Source: Limihaloglobus sulfuriphilus (lineage in GTDB: Bacteria > Planctomycetota > Phycisphaerae > Sedimentisphaerales > Sedimentisphaeraceae). From it: a DNA stretch of 64,000 nucleotides. The stretch spans positions 3,100,001 through 3,164,000 of the forward strand of contig NZ_CP019646.1 in NCBI RefSeq assembly GCF_001999965.1. Direction: 5' to 3'. This document shows positions 39,073-50,764 of this stretch, in pieces. Within the stretch, counting starts at the first letter, position 1, and the number at the start of each line of letters is the position of its first letter. The translations under genes and the position numbers were made by a program. The notes under the pieces are model-generated. The model searched no databases, was not told the origin of the DNA, and worked only from the letters and a program-made list of their open reading frames with translations.

Positions 39073-40381
39073 GAAAAGACGACATTAAGACCCCTGCTCA
39101 ACAAGATAGAAACAATGTACGGCAAGGCCAACAGGGTCTGGCTGATGGACAGGGGCATACCAACGGAAGCTACGCTCAAGTTCATGCGTAAGAACAATAT
39201 AAGCTATCTTGTTGGCACACCCCGCAGACAGCTCGATGATTATAGCAGTGAACTTTCTCAAAAGGACTGGGAGCAGGTAAACAGCAGTGTTCATGTGAAA
39301 TACATCGAAAAAGAGGGCGAATGCTATGTCCTTGCCAGGAGCAGGGATCGTATGCAAAAGGAGAGGGCCATGCGTAAAAGAAAACTGCGTAAATATCTTG
39401 ACGGACTTGAAAAACTCAAGGGATATCGCAATTATGAACGTTTTTATAAACGCCTTGGGGCTTTGCAATCGCAGGCCGGTAAAGCTTATAGATGTGTGGA
39501 GCTCAATATTCCGGGGCAAAAGGAGCGGATTGAAGCCGGCGAATTCAGGTATCACATAAACCGGCAGAAATACCGTGATATGATCTATCGTGACGGCAAG
39601 TACTTTTTGCGGACCAATCAGAAGGGCAAGGATGGTAAGGCACTCTGGAATGAGTATATGCTGCAGTGCAACGTTGAGCAGTCTTTCAGAGAACTCAAGA
39701 GTGATCTTGGCATTCGCCCTGTATATCACCATAAAGAAGAGCGTGTTGATGCCCATATCTTTGTGGCGTTTATAAGTTATTGCCTGCAGGTGACATTGCG
39801 GCATAAGCTGCGGGTGAGTGCCTGCGGCCTGACCGCACAGGCTGCCCTGGAAACGATGAGCCGTATCCAGATGCTTGATGTGACATTTGAAACACTTGAC
39901 GGTCGGTACCTCTTGATGGAGAGGTACACCGAGCCCGAGGCAGATCAGCGTCTGATACTGCACCACCTGAACATGGATCTGCCGCTGCAGAAGCCACCCA
40001 AAATATACAGCAGCCAGGTCAAAGATTAAGACCCCCTTTGGCGACACACCAACACCGCGGGCGCTACCATAAACCCTGTTTTACACCCCTAAGTGAGAAA
40101 TTGGGGTTAACCGCATTTTCCGATGATTTTTTTTATTGTCCTTACAAGATGAACTTATCAGAGCTTCAGTGATTGAGCCGGATTTTTTTCAAACAGAATC
40201 CGTGCAGCGACGTCTTACGGTGAAAAGCCTGTTCGGCTTTTGAATTGAAAATTATATAGAGCAGTGAAACTTGATGAAAGCTCACGCTTTAGCATGAAAA
40301 ATATGCAAACTAAAGTTTGAACTCTTACAATTTGCTCACGACGTATTACGGTCTTTGGAAAATAAACACACAGGGAATATT

Positions 40382-41950
40382 ATGGCATATAAAACATCAT
40401 CTATCACCAACGGCGAAATCTCGGGCGAATATGTTCAGTGGCTGATCGAACACCAGTGGCCTTCTCGGCTCTCGCGTTTTGAGCAGCTGTGGGATTACTA
40501 CGACAACCGTCCCGAATCGGTCTTTGACAAACCGGCTGAGCTGTCAAAGGCCAATGAAATGAGCCGCACATTTGTCTTGCCGCAGGAGGCGGGTCTTCCG
40601 CCGCGGATTACCGGCGTAACAAAAACCGGCCCGAACATTTCAAACCCGCTAACAGAAATTCAGCGAAAAGAAGTCGTGATAGAAAACGATATCGGCTGGC
40701 GGATAAACGCGATGGTTGACTACCTCTTCGGCAGCGGCATAAAACTGCTCAGCAAGGCCGAAGACGCGGGCCGCAAAAGCCGGATAGAAAATATACTCAA
40801 CGCGGTATTCGAACATAACGGAGCAGCGTCGCTGTTTCAGGAGATGGCGGTCCTGGGCAGCGTCTATGGCTATGTAGATTGTCTAATCCGCTGCGGCGGG
40901 CTGTTTGAACCTTTCCGTATTTCACAGCTCAAGCACAGCACCTCTGCAAATCCCAACACCGGCCAAAGCCTCACTTCACAGCATTTCACTTCAGCGCCCG
41001 ACGTTGAACAGCTTGCCCGTGAGATTACGATCGAGCTCATAGAAGCGCCCAGGTCGCTGCCCGTTCTCGATGAGAATGATTACCGCTCATACCGGCTCTA
41101 CGTTCAGCATTTTATCCGCAGCAATAACGCACTCGAGACGAACGAAAGTTTTCTCACGCGGATACTGCGAAAAGAGCAGCCTGCACTGCCGCGGTCTCAG
41201 ACGAGCGTTACCGAGGTGTTCTCCCAGAGCGGCTGGCAGCGTTACGAAGACGGTGAGCTTGTGATGCGAGGCGAGAATCCGCTTGGCGTAATACCGGTTG
41301 TGCATATCCAGAATATGGCAAGGCCGTGCTTCTACGAGGGGCACAGTGATGTTGAGCCGCTGATACCGCTGCAGGATGAGCTCAACACTCGTCTGAGCGA
41401 CAGGGCAAACAGAATCACATTTCAGTCGTTCCGTATGTTTCTGCTAAAGGGAATTGACGCGGGCACCGAAAAGCAGATGATGCCCGGCAGGCTCTGGAGC
41501 ACATTCAACGAAAACGCGTCAATCGATGAATTCGGCGGCGATGCAAACTGCCCCAGCGAAACAGAGCATATCGGCGAGATACGCGAAGCGCTCGACAAGG
41601 TCAGCGGCGTTACCCCGATAGTCGCCGGCGTGATTCGTGATAAGCTGGGCAACCTGACAAGCGCGGTCGCGCTGCGAATGACACTGATGGGAATGCTCGC
41701 CAAGACACAGCGCAAGCGGCTCACCTACGGCGAGGGCATACGCAGAATTTGCCGGCTGATACTGCTGGCGTTTGACAAGTCGGGAATCTTTCACACAGAG
41801 CCGCGGGAGAGGGAAATCGAAATCATATTCCCAAATCCACAGCCCGAGGATACGATCGAGAAACTCCGCGAGGCCCAGCTCAAACAGGAGCTTGGCATAT
41901 CCAGAGAGCAGGTTCTAAAAGAGCTTGGCTACTCTGTGGAAGGCGAATAG
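40382..41950 (+). CDS. Phage-type portal protein (SPP1 gp6-like)
   Basis: The 522-residue protein has the portal pattern: N-terminal WPSRLSRFEQLWDYYDNRPE, then AMVDYLFGSGIKLLS, a beta-rich middle (GWQRYEDGELVMRGENPLG), the stem region IPLQDELNTRLSDRANRITF and the late GNLTSAVALRMTLMGMLAK. Portals form the dodecameric DNA gate at a capsid vertex. The ATG at 40382 has CAGGGAA upstream; the frame is open to 40355. It leads a short capsid cassette but no terminase gene is upstream; IS1634-like copy 1 ends 275 bp before it. Confidence 0.75.
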   Translation: MAYKTSSITNGEISGEYVQWLIEHQWPSRLSRFEQLWDYYDNRPESVFDKPAELSKANEMSRTFVLPQEAGLPPRITGVTKTGPNISNPLTEIQRKEVVIENDIGWRINAMVDYLFGSGIKLLSKAEDAGRKSRIENILNAVFEHNGAASLFQEMAVLGSVYGYVDCLIRCGGLFEPFRISQLKHSTSANPNTGQSLTSQHFTSAPDVEQLAREITIELIEAPRSLPVLDENDYRSYRLYVQHFIRSNNALETNESFLTRILRKEQPALPRSQTSVTEVFSQSGWQRYEDGELVMRGENPLGVIPVVHIQNMARPCFYEGHSDVEPLIPLQDELNTRLSDRANRITFQSFRMFLLKGIDAGTEKQMMPGRLWSTFNENASIDEFGGDANCPSETEHIGEIREALDKVSGVTPIVAGVIRDKLGNLTSAVALRMTLMGMLAKTQRKRLTYGEGIRRICRLILLAFDKSGIFHTEPREREIEIIFPNPQPEDTIEKLREAQLKQELGISREQVLKELGYSVEGE

Positions 41951-42011
41951 AAAATCAGCAAAGATTTGAGTATAAACGCTAAATGATAACCAGGAACTAA
42001 AGGAACGATCA

Positions 42012-42398
42012 ATGGACGAAAATCAAAACACAGAACAGGTTGAATCGCCGCGAGGGGACGGTGAGACGCAGAAACTGAAAACCGAAAACGAGCTTCTTCG
42101 CTCGCTTGCCGCCGAGGGCGTAAGCGATCTCGAGTCGGCTCTTGCTGTGGCGGTTAAGCGGATTGCGGATACGCCCGAGGCGAAACCGGGGGATGTCGTG
42201 GGACAGCTGAAAAGGGACAAGGCGTATCTGTTCGCAAAGCCGGCTCTGCTGACGCCGAAAACCAGCGGCGAAAAATATTCTTACGCATCGGCCGGCGGCA
42301 GCGCCGCGATCGAGAACGCCGCCAAAACCGCAAGACTCTCCGGCAGCATAAAGGCAGTAGCCGAATATATGAGACTGCGAAGGAAGAACAGTATTTAA
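42012..42398 (+). CDS. Probable capsid scaffold or head accessory protein
   Basis: This 128-residue soluble protein starts with an acidic coil (DENQNTEQVESPRGDGETQK) and a leucine-rich helix, and ends in a basic RLRRKNSI. Size, charge and place between portal and capsid suit a scaffold or assembly protein, but no family signature is visible. AAAGGAA precedes the ATG. Confidence 0.5.
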   Translation: MDENQNTEQVESPRGDGETQKLKTENELLRSLAAEGVSDLESALAVAVKRIADTPEAKPGDVVGQLKRDKAYLFAKPALLTPKTSGEKYSYASAGGSAAIENAAKTARLSGSIKAVAEYMRLRRKNSI

Positions 42399-42509
42399 GT
42401 GAAAAGTGAAGAAGGCGGAATCGGCAACTCATACCACTTAACTCTTATCTCTTCACTCACATTTGTTTTGCTTGCATAATTTATCAACTAAAATACAAAG
42501 GAAGCCAAA

Positions 42510-43667
42510 ATGTCTTTTACAGGAAAATCAACATTCTCAGCCGGGGCGGCTCTGCCGGAGCTTGCCGAAGACGTATCGGATATCATCAGTATCGTATCAC
42601 CGTTCGAGACACCGGTGCTCGATATCATCGGCGACGGCGCCGCTCACGCGCGCAGCACGTATCACGAGTGGCTCGAGGACTCTCTGCTGTCCAACACAGA
42701 CACGATAGCATCGACATCGTTTATCGATCCGCAAAGTGACTCATCATTCAACGTTGAAAACCCATCGCGTTTTCGAGTTGGTGATCAGATACGTGTTGCG
42801 GATAATTCCGAGCTGATGCTGATCATTTCTATCGACAGTGCACAGCTTACAGTGACCCGCGGCTATGGCGGCACAACCGCTGAATCGATATCAGTAGGTG
42901 ATACAGTTTACAACCTCGGAGGTGCCGCGGTCGAAGGCGCCGACAGGCCAGAAGCCGAGTACACATCACGGATCAGACGAGGCAACTACACCCAGATATT
43001 CACCGCATCGGTGGAGGTGAGCGGCAGTAATCTCGCCGCCAGTCAGATTGGACTTGAAAACGAGATGGACTATCAGAAACAGCAGCGAATCCGAGAGCTG
43101 ATCCGCGATCTTGAGAATACCGTAATCAACGGCGGCCAGGCACAGTCCAACCCGCACGGCACGCAGTCATCGCCGCGGACTATGAAGGGAATCATCCGGC
43201 ACATCTCGACTAACAGCTACAGCGTTGACGATGCTCCAGTGCCGGGCGAGACGGCTGATCTTGACGAGGAGAAACTCAACTTCATGCTAAAGACTATCTG
43301 GCAGAACAGCACCGGCAGCGTTGATACTATAATCGTCAACGGCACACAGAAACGGCGTATCAATCAGCTGCTCGACGCATCACGTATGTACGGCCCGGAC
43401 GACCTGCGTTTCCGCAACGTTGTCAACTACTACGAAAGCGACTTCGGGCTCTGCCGTGTTATTCTCTCCCGCTGGGTGCCGGCGGATTCTGTTATGTTCG
43501 TTGATTCTTCGCGGCTGAGCGTCATACCGCTTGCAGGCAGGAGCTTTCATTTCAAACCGCTTGTCTCCGGCGGCGACTATGAAGCCGGCCAGGTCATCGG
43601 CGAGTACACACTTGAGATGCGCAACGAAGAAGCACACGGAATTTTGAAAGGGCTCAGCACGGAGTAA
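42510..43667 (+). CDS. Major capsid protein, SU10-like (DUF5309)
   Basis: The 385-residue protein begins FTGKSTFSAGAALPELAEDV and has SIVSPFETPVLDIIGDGAAH and HEWLEDSLLSNT, the start typical of the DUF5309/SU10-type HK97-fold capsid. An inserted beta domain VGDQIRVADNSELMLIISID follows, then IIVNGTQKRRINQLLDASR and SDFGLCRVILSRWVPADSV of the P- and A-domains. It should form the shell with the portal. AAAGGAAGCC precedes the ATG. Confidence 0.8.
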   Translation: MSFTGKSTFSAGAALPELAEDVSDIISIVSPFETPVLDIIGDGAAHARSTYHEWLEDSLLSNTDTIASTSFIDPQSDSSFNVENPSRFRVGDQIRVADNSELMLIISIDSAQLTVTRGYGGTTAESISVGDTVYNLGGAAVEGADRPEAEYTSRIRRGNYTQIFTASVEVSGSNLAASQIGLENEMDYQKQQRIRELIRDLENTVINGGQAQSNPHGTQSSPRTMKGIIRHISTNSYSVDDAPVPGETADLDEEKLNFMLKTIWQNSTGSVDTIIVNGTQKRRINQLLDASRMYGPDDLRFRNVVNYYESDFGLCRVILSRWVPADSVMFVDSSRLSVIPLAGRSFHFKPLVSGGDYEAGQVIGEYTLEMRNEEAHGILKGLSTE

Positions 43668-43771
43668 AATCAATTAGGAGTCAAGAGTGAAGAGTTGTGA
43701 AATCCGCAACTCTTACCTCTTCGCTTTTAACTGTTAAACTTTTTTTGCCAACATTTTTAATACGAAAAACC

Positions 43772-44446
43772 ATGAACACATTTTCAAAAGACATTGACAT
43801 TGCACGTATCGAACCGGGGCTGTTTCTTGAGCCGGCGTTTATTATCTACAGGATTTTTGAAGCAGCGGGCGTGTCGATCACTTCCGGCGTGCTCACTTCG
43901 GAAGGCGCAGCGTTTACCACTTGCGGCATTGAACCGGGCTGTATGCTGATGGTTGACGATGCTTCGATAGTAACGCTCTATGAGATTGCGGAAATAATCT
44001 CTGATGAGCAGCTTGCGGTTTCCATAATCAACCCGCCCGGGGCGGATGCGGTTTCGCCTCCGGATAAAACCGCGGTCGCGGTCTCGGTTGTTTCGTTTAA
44101 GCCGCTGGCCGCGGAGACGCATAACCATATCAGCAGGCTGTTCGGGCTGGCCCCCGGCTCACCGGAATCGCTCTCAAGCACGGACAACATCGCAGACATT
44201 GAACCGCTGCGGCAGGTGTCTGTATTCGGTGTGTGCCGGCGGGCGTTTGAGATTCTCGCCACCAGCGCCGCCGCACAGTCGCCGATAGATGCTGACCTGG
44301 TTGAACACCTCAAGGACAAGGCCGCCGCGTATCAGAGAAGGTACTACCGTTCGATGGAATCGGTCTGGTTTACTGTCAACATAGCAGGCTCGGCGGCCGC
44401 AACCCGGACGATCCGCGGCGGACTGACAAACGCGGTTAGAAACTAA
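43772..44446 (+). CDS. Uncharacterised protein of the capsid cassette
   Basis: The 224-residue protein begins MNTFSKDIDIARIEPGLFL and has a small beta-rich domain (CGIEPGCMLMVDDASIV) followed by a helical half. Position after the capsid gene suggests a head-completion or connector protein, but no family is recognised. The frame is open to 43697; the ATG at 43772 seems the likeliest start although its ribosome site is weak. Confidence 0.5.
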   Translation: MNTFSKDIDIARIEPGLFLEPAFIIYRIFEAAGVSITSGVLTSEGAAFTTCGIEPGCMLMVDDASIVTLYEIAEIISDEQLAVSIINPPGADAVSPPDKTAVAVSVVSFKPLAAETHNHISRLFGLAPGSPESLSSTDNIADIEPLRQVSVFGVCRRAFEILATSAAAQSPIDADLVEHLKDKAAAYQRRYYRSMESVWFTVNIAGSAAATRTIRGGLTNAVRN

Positions 44447-44459
44447 GTTAAAAAAAGTT

Positions 44460-44640
44460 GAGGAATTGTTAAGACAGGATTACAGGATTGACAGGATGAT
44501 ATTTTGGTTTTGAAATTTTAAGATTTCAGATAATTAGACAGGATTAACAAGATTTACAGGATTGTTATTTAATAATTTATTCTTGTTAATCTTGTTAATC
44601 ATGTCCACTTAATATCAATTTAATAATCTGCGGATAAAAA
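44460..44640. repeat. Degenerate GGATTAACAAGATT-type repeats
   Basis: Variants of ACAGGATTAACAAGATTTAC occur several times (44475-44500, 44540-44565), and the complement (CTTGTTAATCTTGTTAATC) follows at about 44583-44601, giving a loose inverted pair. No gene is present between 44447 and 44653. Confidence 0.55.
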
Positions 44641-44653
44641 AGGAAAGGAAAAA

Positions 44654-45244
44654 ATGAAAGCAATACTTATCGCATCACTGCTTATAGTTATAACCGGCTG
44701 TGAAACATTTCGGCCGGCACCTGACGAGGTTCAGAAACAAAATGCCTGGCTCCATCAGCAGACCTGCTCGCTGGCGGCGAAAACGGCGCGGCAGCAGGGA
44801 GGCTCGCCCCAGCTTTGCGGTCTGACCGATTTAAGCCATACCCAATCGCAGGCGTGGACGGCGTGGACTGGTATGCCGGATTCGCCGCGGACTTTTACAG
44901 ACGCCGATGATATTCTCAGTGACGAAAACTACACGCTCGCCGAACAGGCTGCCCAGTCGGCGGCGAAGAGAATTACGCCGGATGAATATGTGCTGGAGTT
45001 TCTCGATATGGCCGCACTGATCGCGGCTGTTGTCGGCGGTGCCGCCGGGCTCAAGATTTCCGCCGCGATAAAGACTGCCCGCGACAAAGCCGCCGCCGTC
45101 AGGGAGATTATCACCGGCAACGAGATATTTAAAGCCGCGAACCCCCAGGCCGCCGACGCGTTCAAGCGGGCACAGGCGATCCAGTCACCCCAGACACGCA
45201 CGATCGTAACACAGTTAAAAACCAAAACAGCATCGCCAACATAA
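44654..45244 (+). CDS. Predicted lipoprotein at the end of the capsid cassette
   Basis: The signal ends in a lipobox VITGC (Cys16). The mature part is Ala- and Gln-rich with one hydrophobic helix near residues 115-130 (FLDMAALIAAVVGGAAGLKI) and a helical tail. AAGGAAAGGAAA precedes the ATG. It follows the capsid genes on the same strand, but no phage lysis family can be named with confidence. Confidence 0.5.
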   Translation: MKAILIASLLIVITGCETFRPAPDEVQKQNAWLHQQTCSLAAKTARQQGGSPQLCGLTDLSHTQSQAWTAWTGMPDSPRTFTDADDILSDENYTLAEQAAQSAAKRITPDEYVLEFLDMAALIAAVVGGAAGLKISAAIKTARDKAAAVREIITGNEIFKAANPQAADAFKRAQAIQSPQTRTIVTQLKTKTASPT

Positions 45245-45271
45245 ACACAGCCGGCCCGCAGTTGCCGCATC

Positions 45272-45435
45272 AGAGCCGCGAGTGTAAACGAGCGGTTATT
45301 CCGTCAGCCATGTGCAGGATAGTCCACGTAAAATCCGGCAGGAGTTTTACACCCCTGACAAAATACAGCGTTTATTTCTGGTATTATGTTGCGACACTGC
45401 GTATTACCTAACCGCTCATTGACATTCGCGGCTCT
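45272..45435. repeat. 164-bp terminal-inverted-repeat element, copy 3 (MITE-like)
   Basis: Starts AGAGCCGCGAGTGTAAACGA and ends with the near-complement ATTGACATTCGCGGCTCT, so the ~26-bp inverted ends match the elements at 8079 and 8281. Length is also the same, but the interior differs. It lies between the lipoprotein gene and the DUF4143 ATPase. Confidence 0.7.
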
Positions 45436-45493
45436 GAAATAGATACAGAAACGGCAAACATTCCTCTTTCGGGGTTTGGCAGAGCCGGCAAAG

Positions 45494-45611
45494 AAAATAC
45501 CTTGCAGATTGACCATCAGACGGTTGATTTGCAAGGTATTTTTACATGTATTTGTGAAAAAACACCAAATTACCTTGCAAAACTACCATGCTATGGTTAA
45601 AATACAAGGTA
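45494..45611 (+). promoter_or_regulatory. Two 41-bp hairpins upstream of the DUF4143 ATPase
   Basis: Hairpin A (45498-45538, stem extended by 4 bp on each side to 45494-45542) and hairpin B (45571-45611) both start TACCTTGCA, continue with a ...ACCAT...GGTT... inner pair and end CAAGGTA. Each is exactly 41 bp and they are 73 bp apart. The last A of hairpin B is the first base of the gene's ATG. They could be operators, mRNA structures hiding the start site, or ends of a mobile unit. Confidence 0.75.
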
Positions 45612-46843
45612 TGTACAAAGAGAGATTGATAACAGAGAAGCTCAAAAGACTTGTCAACACTTTCCCTGCGGTAGTGCTAACAGGTGCCAGGCAGGTTGGC
45701 AAGAGCACTCTGCTTACGCACATATTCCCAAATTTCGAGCACGTTACATTTGACCCTGTTATTGATATTGGCTATTCCAGTGATGAACCGGATATCTTTC
45801 TGCGAAACCATCCCACGCCGGTCATTTTAGATGAAATCCAATACGCCCCTGAGCTAATTTCGGCAGTAAAAAGGCGTATTGACAACGACCGTTCACCGGG
45901 CCAATACATAATTACCGGCTCCCAGCAGTGGGCTGTAATGAAGAATATTTCAGAAGCTCTTACAGGCCGTGCAGTTATAGTTGATATGGAAGGTTTTTCT
46001 CTTTCCGAAATCGCCGGCCGTATAACCGAAAAAAACTGGCTTTCAAATTGGCTAAACCTCAGTCCGGAAGAATTTAAAGCAGGACATACACGACTGCCGG
46101 CACAAAGACCGCTTTTCGAACAGCTCTGGAGGGGTTGGCTGCCGGAGGTTGAAAGACTCGCGGCAGAAGATATTATCATATATCTGCGCTCTTATATTCA
46201 GACTTATGTCGAACGTGATGTGAGGAATCTGCTGGATACCAGCGACTGGCAGTCTTTCGGCAAATTCCTGCAGATGATATCTGCCCTGACCGCTCAGGAA
46301 ATGAACTATTCTCGTTTCGGTAATGATTTAGATATTTCTCCGCAGACTGTTCGTCGCTGGTTTTCAGTGATCGAAGGCACATTCCAGTGGTTTAATATTG
46401 CTTCGTTCAGCGGCAATACGCTTAAGCGGATCTGCCGAAGACAAAAAGGTTATTTCGCGGATACCGGCCTTGCTTGCAGTCTCAACCGGATTTCATCGCA
46501 CCGCTCGCTATTGGGGCACCCAATAGCCGGAGCTCTTTTTGAAACGGCAGTAGTTTCGGAAATACGCAAACTCTCAACAACACTGGCAATGCCGCCGCAA
46601 TTCTACCACTGGAGGACAGCCGGAGGGGCAGAGGTTGACCTGATAATGGAACGTGACGGCTCTTTGTTTCCCGTAGAGATCAAAATGACATCAAACCCCG
46701 GAAAGAAACACCTCAGCGGGATAAACGCATTCAGAAGAACATACCCGAAACTCTCAATCGCGCCGGGACTGGTAATTTGCCCGTGCGAAAAATTTGTTCA
46801 GATATCCCAAACAGATTATGCCCTTCCATGGGACAGTGTTTAA
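45611..46843 (+). CDS. AAA family ATPase with DUF4143 domain
   Basis: Residues 1-140 form an AAA ATPase with Walker A VVLTGARQVGKST (Lys31) and Walker B PVILDEIQYAPEL, followed by ITGSQQWAVMKNISEALTGR. The C-terminal part is DUF4143, with a nuclease-like segment RTAGGAEVDLIMERDGSLFPVEIK that looks like a PD-(D/E)XK fold (EVD...EIK). The frame is open to 45476, but the hairpins and family alignment (MYKERLITEK) favour 45611. Families of this kind are common accessory genes with no settled function; toxin-antitoxin, defence or mobile roles are all possible. Confidence 0.82.
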   Translation: MYKERLITEKLKRLVNTFPAVVLTGARQVGKSTLLTHIFPNFEHVTFDPVIDIGYSSDEPDIFLRNHPTPVILDEIQYAPELISAVKRRIDNDRSPGQYIITGSQQWAVMKNISEALTGRAVIVDMEGFSLSEIAGRITEKNWLSNWLNLSPEEFKAGHTRLPAQRPLFEQLWRGWLPEVERLAAEDIIIYLRSYIQTYVERDVRNLLDTSDWQSFGKFLQMISALTAQEMNYSRFGNDLDISPQTVRRWFSVIEGTFQWFNIASFSGNTLKRICRRQKGYFADTGLACSLNRISSHRSLLGHPIAGALFETAVVSEIRKLSTTLAMPPQFYHWRTAGGAEVDLIMERDGSLFPVEIKMTSNPGKKHLSGINAFRRTYPKLSIAPGLVICPCEKFVQISQTDYALPWDSV

Positions 46844-48779: not shown

Positions 48780-50764
48780 CCCCAATTTCTCACTTAGGGG
48801 TGTAAAACAGGGTTTATGGTAGCGCCCGCGGCGTTGGTGTGTCGCCAAAGGGGGTCTTAATCTTTGACCTGGCTGCTGTATATTTTGGGTGGCTTCTGCA
48901 GCGGCAGATCCATGTTCAGGTGGTGCAGTATCAGACGCTGATCTGCCTCGGGCTCGGTGTACCTCTCCATCAAGAGGTACCGACCGTCAAGTGTTTCAAA
49001 TGTCACATCAAGCATCTGGATACGGCTCATCGTTTCCAGGGCAGCCTGTGCGGTCAGGCCGCAGGCACTCACCCGCAGCTTATGCCGCAATGTCACCTGC
49101 AGGCAATAACTTATAAACGCCACAAAGATATGGGCATCAACACGCTCTTCTTTATGGTGATATACAGGGCGAATGCCAAGATCACTCTTGAGTTCTCTGA
49201 AAGACTGCTCAACGTTGCACTGCAGCATATACTCATTCCAGAGTGCCTTACCATCCTTGCCCTTCTGATTGGTCCGCAAAAAGTACTTGCCGTCACGATA
49301 GATCATATCACGGTATTTCTGCCGGTTTATGTGATACCTGAATTCGCCGGCTTCAATCCGCTCCTTTTGCCCCGGAATATCGAGCTCCATACATCTATAA
49401 GCGTTACCGGCCTGCGATTGCAAAGCCCCAAGGCGTTTATAAAAACGTTCATAATTGCGATATCCCTTGAGTTTTTCAAGTCCGTCAAGATATTTACGCA
49501 GTTTTCTTTTACGCATGGCCCTCTCCTTTTGCATACGATCCCTGCTCCTGGCAAGGACATAGCATTCGCCCTCTTTTTCGATGTATTTCACATGAACACT
49601 GCTGTTTACCTGCTCCCAGTCCTTTTCAGAAAGTTCACTGCTATAATCATCGAGCTGTCTGCGGGGTGTGCCAACAAGATAGCTTATATTGTTCTTACGC
49701 ATGAACTTGAGCGTAGCTTCCGTTGGTATGCCCCTGTCCATCAGCCAGACCCTGTTGGCCTTGCCGTACATTGTTTCTATCTTGTTGAGCAGGGGTCTTA
49801 ATGTCGTCTTTTCAGATGTATTTCCCTGAAGTACTTCGTAGTCAAGAGGAAAGCCCTCCGGCGTAACAACAAGGGCTATCAGCACCTGTCTGCAATCACT
49901 GCGTCTGTCTTTGCTGTGGCCGAATTCTGACTTGGGATTCTGCTTGCATAGCCCCTCGAAATACGTGCTGGTGATATCATAGAGCAGGATGTCGTACTCA
50001 AGGTTGAACATTCCTTGCCAGGTGTCTTTAAGGTATTTGCAAAGTTCGTCTTTGTATGGAAGGATACGGTCAAGACAACGGTAGAGCCTGTTTTTCTCGG
50101 CAATCTCAAAATCACAATCAAGGATGGCGTCCATAGCACTCTGGCTGAACCAGTGCTGATGGACAAAGTATTCGGCAGAAGGTTTTATCAGCCTGCTCAC
50201 CGTAAGCAACTTGAGGACTTTTGAGAATGCGACCGGCGATCTGTCTGTATCAATCCGCTCTGACCAGAAGCGGTCAAAACCAAGCTGATCCCACATCTCA
50301 GAAGCCAGCCAGCAATCGCCAAACCTACGCGGTCGTTCCAGTCTCATCTTTGAGATGTTAACCGGTATCGTATCAACATCGTGACAGCTCTGGTTGTCCT
50401 GATCAAAAGCAAAAAGGGTTTTGTGTACAGGTTTGTTATCTTCGTTGATTATCTCAATTGATCTCTGCCAGGCCTTCTTTTGAGAGCCGCTGATCTCACC
50501 AAGGTAAAGAACCACCTTCTCCACATGCCGATTACCGGAGACCTTCCGCTTCTCAGCAATACTGTAATAGGTGTTGCATTTACCGTTCTTTTTACGCCTG
50601 TGCTTTTTCAAATACATACCCAAATTATCGCATAGAAATTCACCTATGCAATAGGGCAGGTCTGTACCAAAGCCAAATCCAGAATCAAAACACCCCTCAA
50701 AGGCCAGAAACATCGAAAATATTTTTATTTTTACCGGTTTCGAGACCTAAGTGAGAAATTGGGG
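48780..50764 (-). mobile_element. IS1634-like insertion sequence, copy 2 (intact)
   Basis: The element is 1985 bp, beginning CCCCAATTTCTCACTTAGG and ending with its complement. TTAA lies on each side (48776-48779, 50765-50768). Removing the element and one TTAA joins FVYI to KTNDSF in frame in the host gene, which shows that TTAA is the duplicated target and fixes the element ends. Confidence 0.92.
48857..50617 (-). CDS. IS1634-family transposase
   Basis: The 586-residue protein is complete. It starts MYLKKHRRKKNGKCNTYYSI, contains the first Asp region YDILLYDITSTYFEGLCKQ and the second Asp region ANRVWLMDRGIPTEATLKF, and has the late Glu block NEYMLQCNVEQSFRELKS, as in IS1634/IS4-type DDE enzymes. 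The frame is open to 50713 (MFLAFEGC), but those residues do not look like the family. It can probably still transpose; copy 1 shows a once-active relative. Confidence 0.88.
   Translation of the reverse strand: MYLKKHRRKKNGKCNTYYSIAEKRKVSGNRHVEKVVLYLGEISGSQKKAWQRSIEIINEDNKPVHKTLFAFDQDNQSCHDVDTIPVNISKMRLERPRRFGDCWLASEMWDQLGFDRFWSERIDTDRSPVAFSKVLKLLTVSRLIKPSAEYFVHQHWFSQSAMDAILDCDFEIAEKNRLYRCLDRILPYKDELCKYLKDTWQGMFNLEYDILLYDITSTYFEGLCKQNPKSEFGHSKDRRSDCRQVLIALVVTPEGFPLDYEVLQGNTSEKTTLRPLLNKIETMYGKANRVWLMDRGIPTEATLKFMRKNNISYLVGTPRRQLDDYSSELSEKDWEQVNSSVHVKYIEKEGECYVLARSRDRMQKERAMRKRKLRKYLDGLEKLKGYRNYERFYKRLGALQSQAGNAYRCMELDIPGQKERIEAGEFRYHINRQKYRDMIYRDGKYFLRTNQKGKDGKALWNEYMLQCNVEQSFRELKSDLGIRPVYHHKEERVDAHIFVAFISYCLQVTLRHKLRVSACGLTAQAALETMSRIQMLDVTFETLDGRYLLMERYTEPEADQRLILHHLNMDLPLQKPPKIYSSQVKD

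Follow-up and report, generated by a model that had tools for sequence, protein, structure and literature searches.

Palindromic operators predicted in the putative leaderless promoter of a PDC-S01-type ATPase-nuclease gene of Limihaloglobus sulfuriphilus

Two 41-bp palindromes, designated O1 and O2, precede an AAA_14-DUF4143 ATPase gene in the window, a 64,000-nt stretch of the Limihaloglobus sulfuriphilus genome (contig NZ_CP019646.1) from whose first base positions are numbered. The reading favored here, with a probability of roughly 0.7, is that both palindromes act as double-stranded DNA and form operators within the gene's own leaderless promoter, most likely read by the encoded ATPase-nuclease, which would in this way repress its own expression. 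Autoregulation, already raised in the original prediction, appears to be the best-supported function of the palindromes in view of the promoter elements found within O2 and of an association between operator and recognition helix among homologs.

Two palindromes and a promoter-like element at the start codon

The upstream palindrome, O1, occupies positions 45498-45538 (TACCTTGCAGATTGACCATCAGACGGTTGATTTGCAAGGTA) and O2 positions 45571-45611 (TACCTTGCAAAACTACCATGCTATGGTTAAAATACAAGGTA); as operator-like dyads, neither is assigned to a strand. Their centers lie 73 bp apart, they are 72% identical over 46 nt, and the last base of O2 is A45611 of the ATG codon at 45611-45613. The original prediction, made for the span 45494-46843, which includes both palindromes and the gene, was therefore right about their length, their distance and the position of the second one. 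The palindromes are also specific to the ATPase gene: when the whole 3.87-Mb genome was scanned, the pattern TACCTTGCA-N20..30-CAAGGTA was present at two sites only, O1 and O2. The looser pattern ACCTTG-N24..30-CAAGGT retrieved one further site, and a broad regulon was rejected on this count. No third copy was found 3' of the gene, where the original prediction had proposed to look for one, both copies being on the 5' side.

A promoter-like element, TTGCAA-N17-TAAAAT, is embedded in O2, taking the sigma-70 consensus to apply to Planctomycetota. The -35-like hexamer (45575-45580, plus strand) lies in the left arm, with a spacing conserved in orthologs, and the -10-like hexamer (45598-45603, plus strand) lies in the right half and ends 7 nt before the ATG. 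Taken alone, the match in the window is not significant: one was found, and the 450 bp scanned would yield 0.8 by chance. The geometry recurs, however, in the homologs, whose start codons were assigned by rule. In 55 of 117 of them, versus about 14 in shuffled sequences, the best promoter match has a -10 hexamer that ends 6-10 nt short of the ATG, and a -10-like hexamer matching at least four of six positions is found at this distance in 56% of homologs versus 15% of control ORFs. At -1, 83% of the 117 homologs have a pyrimidine, and Shine-Dalgarno-like motifs occur less often than among the window's control ORFs (19/129 versus 16/40). Seven of the eight closer homologs, L014 being the exception, carry two promoter-like hexamers separated by 16-18 nt, the -10 of which ends 6-9 nt ahead of the start codon; this codon, found in the group 24 residues upstream of the Walker A motif, is GTG in L013. 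This geometry points to transcription that would begin at the start codon itself and yield a leaderless messenger.

Upstream regions of the homologs

With the single protein as query, the genomes yielded two loci and the viral contigs yielded none; the alignment query retrieved 41 viral loci. The comparison covers homologs from bacteria and from viral contigs. Homologs sharing 26-60% identity with the window protein carry palindromes of different sequence at the same upstream position, and the prediction that the arrangement is not accidental, which called for relatives to carry such structures, holds at the family level. Palindromes significant against dinucleotide shuffles (p<=0.05) were detected in 58 of 117 upstream regions, versus 7 of 115 controls taken at a greater distance upstream and 6 of 117 taken from coding sequence, and their centers cluster near -13, -19/-20 and -28/-29. 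When direct repeats are counted as well, the proportion rises to 78/128 upstream regions versus 11/128 coding controls, and the pattern was recovered in an independent set of viral contigs (10/36 versus 1/34 controls). It is shared by plasmid members of the family from Moraxella, Azotobacter, Thermus, Allochromatium and Octadecabacter. About 40% of the homologs fall below significance in the palindrome and repeat tests, and these include some closer orthologs such as L014.

Direct repeats were found in 31 of 128 loci, with spacings of 22/23 bp (17 loci), 31-33 bp (5), 40-41 bp (2) and 73 bp (1). These values are mostly close to two, three, four and seven helical turns, which fits proteins bound on one face of the DNA. 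In one subgroup (L096, L104, L115 and L119), direct repeats that include GCCG follow one another every 23 bp in tandem before the ATG in place of a palindrome, and the proteins have SRPTIRDY-like helices. Paralogs encoded in the same genome as the window gene mostly have palindromes or repeats of their own that differ from one another (L003, L006, L007, L008 and L009, as judged by eye, some of them not significant); upstream of L004, no clear palindrome was seen. Genes for more distant AAA_14 proteins, from Bacteroides, Acinetobacter and Lactobacillus, have no palindrome upstream, and the claim is therefore limited to the branch of the window protein.

Domains of the encoded protein

The coding sequence extends from the ATG at 45611 to 46843 on the plus strand and encodes 410 residues, numbered here from Tyr2 (positions in the full-length protein are one higher). 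Its identification as a DUF4143 ATPase was correct, since both AAA_14 and DUF4143 domains are present, and the PADLOC profile PDC-S01 matches it over its full length (E 6e-97, residues 3-408 of 409). The nucleotide-binding domain of AAA/STAND type (45665-46012, plus strand) contains a conserved Walker A motif (GARQVGKS, G24-K30) and a Walker B motif (D73 E74). An AlphaFold2 prediction, for which the input alignment contained no plasmid rows, reached a pLDDT of 93.7 and comprises a P-loop domain, a winged helix and a C-terminal domain. The predicted winged helix (46247-46405, plus strand), for which both the model and the fold matches argue, overlaps the start of DUF4143 and consists of helices 212-224, 232-239 and 243-255 followed by strand 259-264.

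A single-sequence search of the PDB with the ATPase protein returned no match. Two archaeal STAND ATPases are the folds nearest to the model, namely 2qen (Z 15.3, rmsd 4.6, 249 residues aligned) and 2fna (Z 14.4), followed by plant NLRs (RPP1), CED-4 and Avs5. The C-terminal PD-(D/E)XK nuclease-like domain (46514-46840, plus strand), modeled alone with a pLDDT of 96.2, has its closest match in McrC (Z 8.4, rmsd 2.6, 104 residues aligned) and also aligns with Can2 and other PD-(D/E)XK nucleases. Its E310, D342, E355 and K357, which make up the E, D, E-x-K set, are invariant or nearly so, in agreement with the PD-(D/E)XK-like segment that had been noticed in the sequence. The protein is thus modeled as a STAND/NLR-like ATPase with a winged helix and a putative nuclease domain. 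A P-loop domain with a winged helix C-terminal to it is present in the NOD arrangement typical of this class; sensor repeats (LRR, TPR or WD), which form the C-terminus of class members, are absent, the 410-residue protein ending in PD-(D/E)XK.

The protein predicted to read the operators

Identity in 384 segments of 13 residues was scored as a predictor of how similar the operators are, with identity elsewhere in the protein taken into account. The best segment, residues 239-251 (LDISPQTVRRWFS), lies at the predicted recognition helix (46340-46378, plus strand, the PQTVRRWFSVIEG region), with a partial association of 0.157 against a mean of 0.041 and a standard deviation of 0.044. A second stretch, 319-337, scores 0.12-0.13 in the same scan. 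All these partial associations are small, the segments overlap one another and the correction for common ancestry is partial. Operator motifs track helix motifs, also across phyla, QPT[VA]HR being found with GAATGATTATCATTC in Planctomycetota and in Thermus. Against this, an operator close to those of the window (ACCTTGCA...TGCAAGGT-ATG) was observed upstream of 480 in L133, on an Octadecabacter plasmid; the protein encoded there shares about 26% identity with the window protein and has a different recognition helix, and the likeness may reflect either convergence or shared contact residues.

The association between helix and operator points to the encoded protein as the reader, and these comparisons make the ATPase-nuclease itself the most likely candidate. 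It is unlikely that a different, host-encoded regulator binds the operator and that the ATPase gene is merely its target. Binding by the ATPase is something that we infer, and many defense genes are placed under separate regulators, for instance those of the WYL-domain family, whose BrxR-type members control phage-defense genes through inverted-repeat operators. The window is similar in having a predicted inverted-repeat operator at a candidate defense gene. It differs in that a WYL regulator is encoded by a separate gene, and no regulator gene was seen at the window locus, either adjoining the ATPase gene or conserved in its neighborhood. A host regulator would moreover have to accommodate paralogs that possess different operators in one and the same genome, an operator essentially confined to the ATPase locus, and operator types that vary, in different phyla alike, with the recognition helix of the ATPase itself.

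A convenient test case is offered by a cultured member of the family, a gene of Thermus thermophilus HB27 on plasmid pTT27 (L175:4854-6074, minus strand) with a GAATGA(T/C)TATCATTC operator. CTGAATGACTATCATTCA precedes its ATG and its helix reads QPTVHRYLN. According to its map position, this gene is probably TT_P0211 (AAA_14, DUF4143, HTH), for which a published study lists a 6.6-fold rise in RNA when a plasmid is present in Ago+ HB27 cells (PMC4406477). This rise may be a hint of a trigger.

Proposed mode of action

According to the mechanism proposed here, the left arm of O2 would hold the -35 element of a leaderless promoter and the right half of O2 its -10 element, and O1 would act as a second site on the same side of the double helix, seven turns farther upstream, with binding probably cooperative or looped. 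The winged helix of this STAND/NLR-like ATPase would have retained a sequence-specific recognition helix. In the resting state, protein bound to O1 and O2 would block RNA polymerase and keep its own level low. A trigger, coming from invading DNA or from the nucleotide state, would then release the protein, so that expression would increase and the nuclease would be freed.

The protein might instead bind its operator as an activator, or be parked there as a sensor, without strong repression. Activators such as MalT do occur among STAND proteins and several upstream sites are seen in the paralogs L006 and L009, yet O2 spans the -35 and -10 hexamers as well as the start site, an arrangement that usually excludes polymerase, and this possibility is rather improbable. 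Autorepression remains the preferred reading. Its extension to the whole NLR-like candidate family can be put forward only tentatively, and may well fail: the STAND winged helix of each protein would be a fast-diversifying DNA reader, each gene would have a private operator in its leaderless promoter, and release driven by the invader or by the nucleotide would couple derepression to nuclease activation.

A private operator at each promoter would provide a reporter of the triggering of the system as well as a DNA ligand for biochemistry and structural work, and the natural series of helix-operator pairs would allow tests of specificity. If the proposal is true, the NLR-like winged helix, mostly known as a part of the switch, would be linked to sequence-specific DNA reading.

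Relation to known systems

The window protein matches PDC-S01, a candidate phage-defense family (AAA_14-DUF4143, COG1373) whose defensive role is putative. In its published description, PDC-S01 ranks as the fourth most common candidate defense gene in prokaryotes, and most such candidates await validation (PMC12988326). The likeness extends to the full-length profile match and to the ATPase fused to PD-(D/E)XK reported in that paper, a search of which turned up nothing on promoter, operator or autoregulation (PMC12988326). In the literature covered, which left out most subscription journals and preprints and was consulted in part as passages on the family, no prior description of such regulation was found for PDC-S01, DUF4143 or COG1373, and nothing on the mechanism of PDC-S01.

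The core of nucleotide-binding domain and winged helix aligns over about 249 residues with the archaeal STAND ATPases PAB2304 (2qen) and SSO1545 (2fna), together with which the NLR, CED-4, Apaf-1 and Avs proteins are listed as sharing this core. Unlike these relatives, the window protein has a nuclease domain after the core and no sensor repeats, and its winged helix seems to recognize DNA in the promoter of its own gene. The closest regulatory parallel is AbiEi/Rv2827c of the type IV AbiE system, a winged-helix protein specific for cognate inverted repeats that cover its own promoter and start site (PMC7319586). The window gene likewise combines a winged helix with inverted repeats over its own promoter. 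However, AbiEi is the small antitoxin of a two-gene operon, whereas the window protein would be regulator and effector in one; no partner toxin gene of this kind is found in the same operon, the next gene encoding MltA.

Covariation of the palindrome stems

Six 41-mers of the window type were available for the analysis of covariation, namely O1, O2 and the copies found upstream of homologs L010, L011, L016 and L064. In these sequences 83.3% of the cells are paired, versus 31-43% in slid controls, and both sides have changed in 11 of 20 pairs, a value reached by 1 of 500 shuffles. The stems therefore change in ways that keep pairing, and the dyad seems to be under selection, as originally predicted. 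For a DNA dyad, such covariation means that both half-sites shift together as one binding specificity drifts.

The original prediction had also suggested that the structure controls access to the start site, and a transcribed palindrome that folds to hide or to time the start codon would account for the covarying stems; the O2 transcript is indeed foldable (-12.0 kcal/mol). This RNA hairpin is nevertheless very unlikely. The -35 and -10 elements are inside the palindrome, and a transcript starting at the AUG, as the promoter geometry suggests, would leave the palindrome upstream of the RNA. The stems of the 58 significant palindromes comprise 801 Watson-Crick pairs, 19 G-T pairs and 26 A-C mismatches; selection on RNA would favor G-T, which does not exceed A-C and so counts against a hairpin. 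The palindrome centers vary in position among -13, -20 and -28, whereas the promoter keeps a constant distance from the ATG, and in many homologs phased direct repeats replace the palindrome altogether. Finally, no curated Rfam family was matched at the gathering score, and matches to miRNA families that fell far short of the cut-off were taken as chance. The covariation of the orthologous palindromes is better understood as that of DNA dyads.

Genomic surroundings

It is very unlikely that the repeats serve the recombination or replication of a mobile unit, be it as its ends, as a resolution site or as repeats bound by an initiator: the patchy distribution (158 of 392 genomes), the copies on plasmids and viral contigs, the pairing of ATPase and nuclease domains and the adjoining phage-like genes would suit such a unit, but both repeats are on one side, with no terminal repeat at the 3' end, their position is locked to the promoter and the ATG throughout the family, and no integrase or transposase lies within the unit. 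The idea of a mobile unit bounded by the palindromes was thus not upheld. The gene that follows the ATPase gene, about 230 nt downstream, encodes MltA, and two genomes of the same family simply lack the ATPase gene beside it. Comparison with these putative empty sites yielded the MltA gene and a few weak matches only, from which the boundaries of a unit are not definable.

Other features of the neighborhood deserve mention. A 168-bp stretch at 45270-45437 has 29-nt inverted ends (TCAGAGCCGCGAGTGTAAACGAGCGGTTA), and the motif at its ends is matched 19 times across the genome, in part in arrays with a spacing of about 203 bp (genome positions 3806629-3809323); it is a repeated element, perhaps MITE-like. 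Phage-like genes at 40355-45244, including a portal (phrog_64) and a major head protein (phrog_1328), are located just upstream of the ATPase gene between transposase genes, and were not found beside the MltA gene in the two genomes of the same family. The segments 39085-40047 and 48839-49801 are nearly identical and belong to two copies of a DDE_Tnp_1 transposase, one truncated and the other full (48857-50713, minus strand), which flank the phage-like genes and the ATPase gene in opposite orientation.
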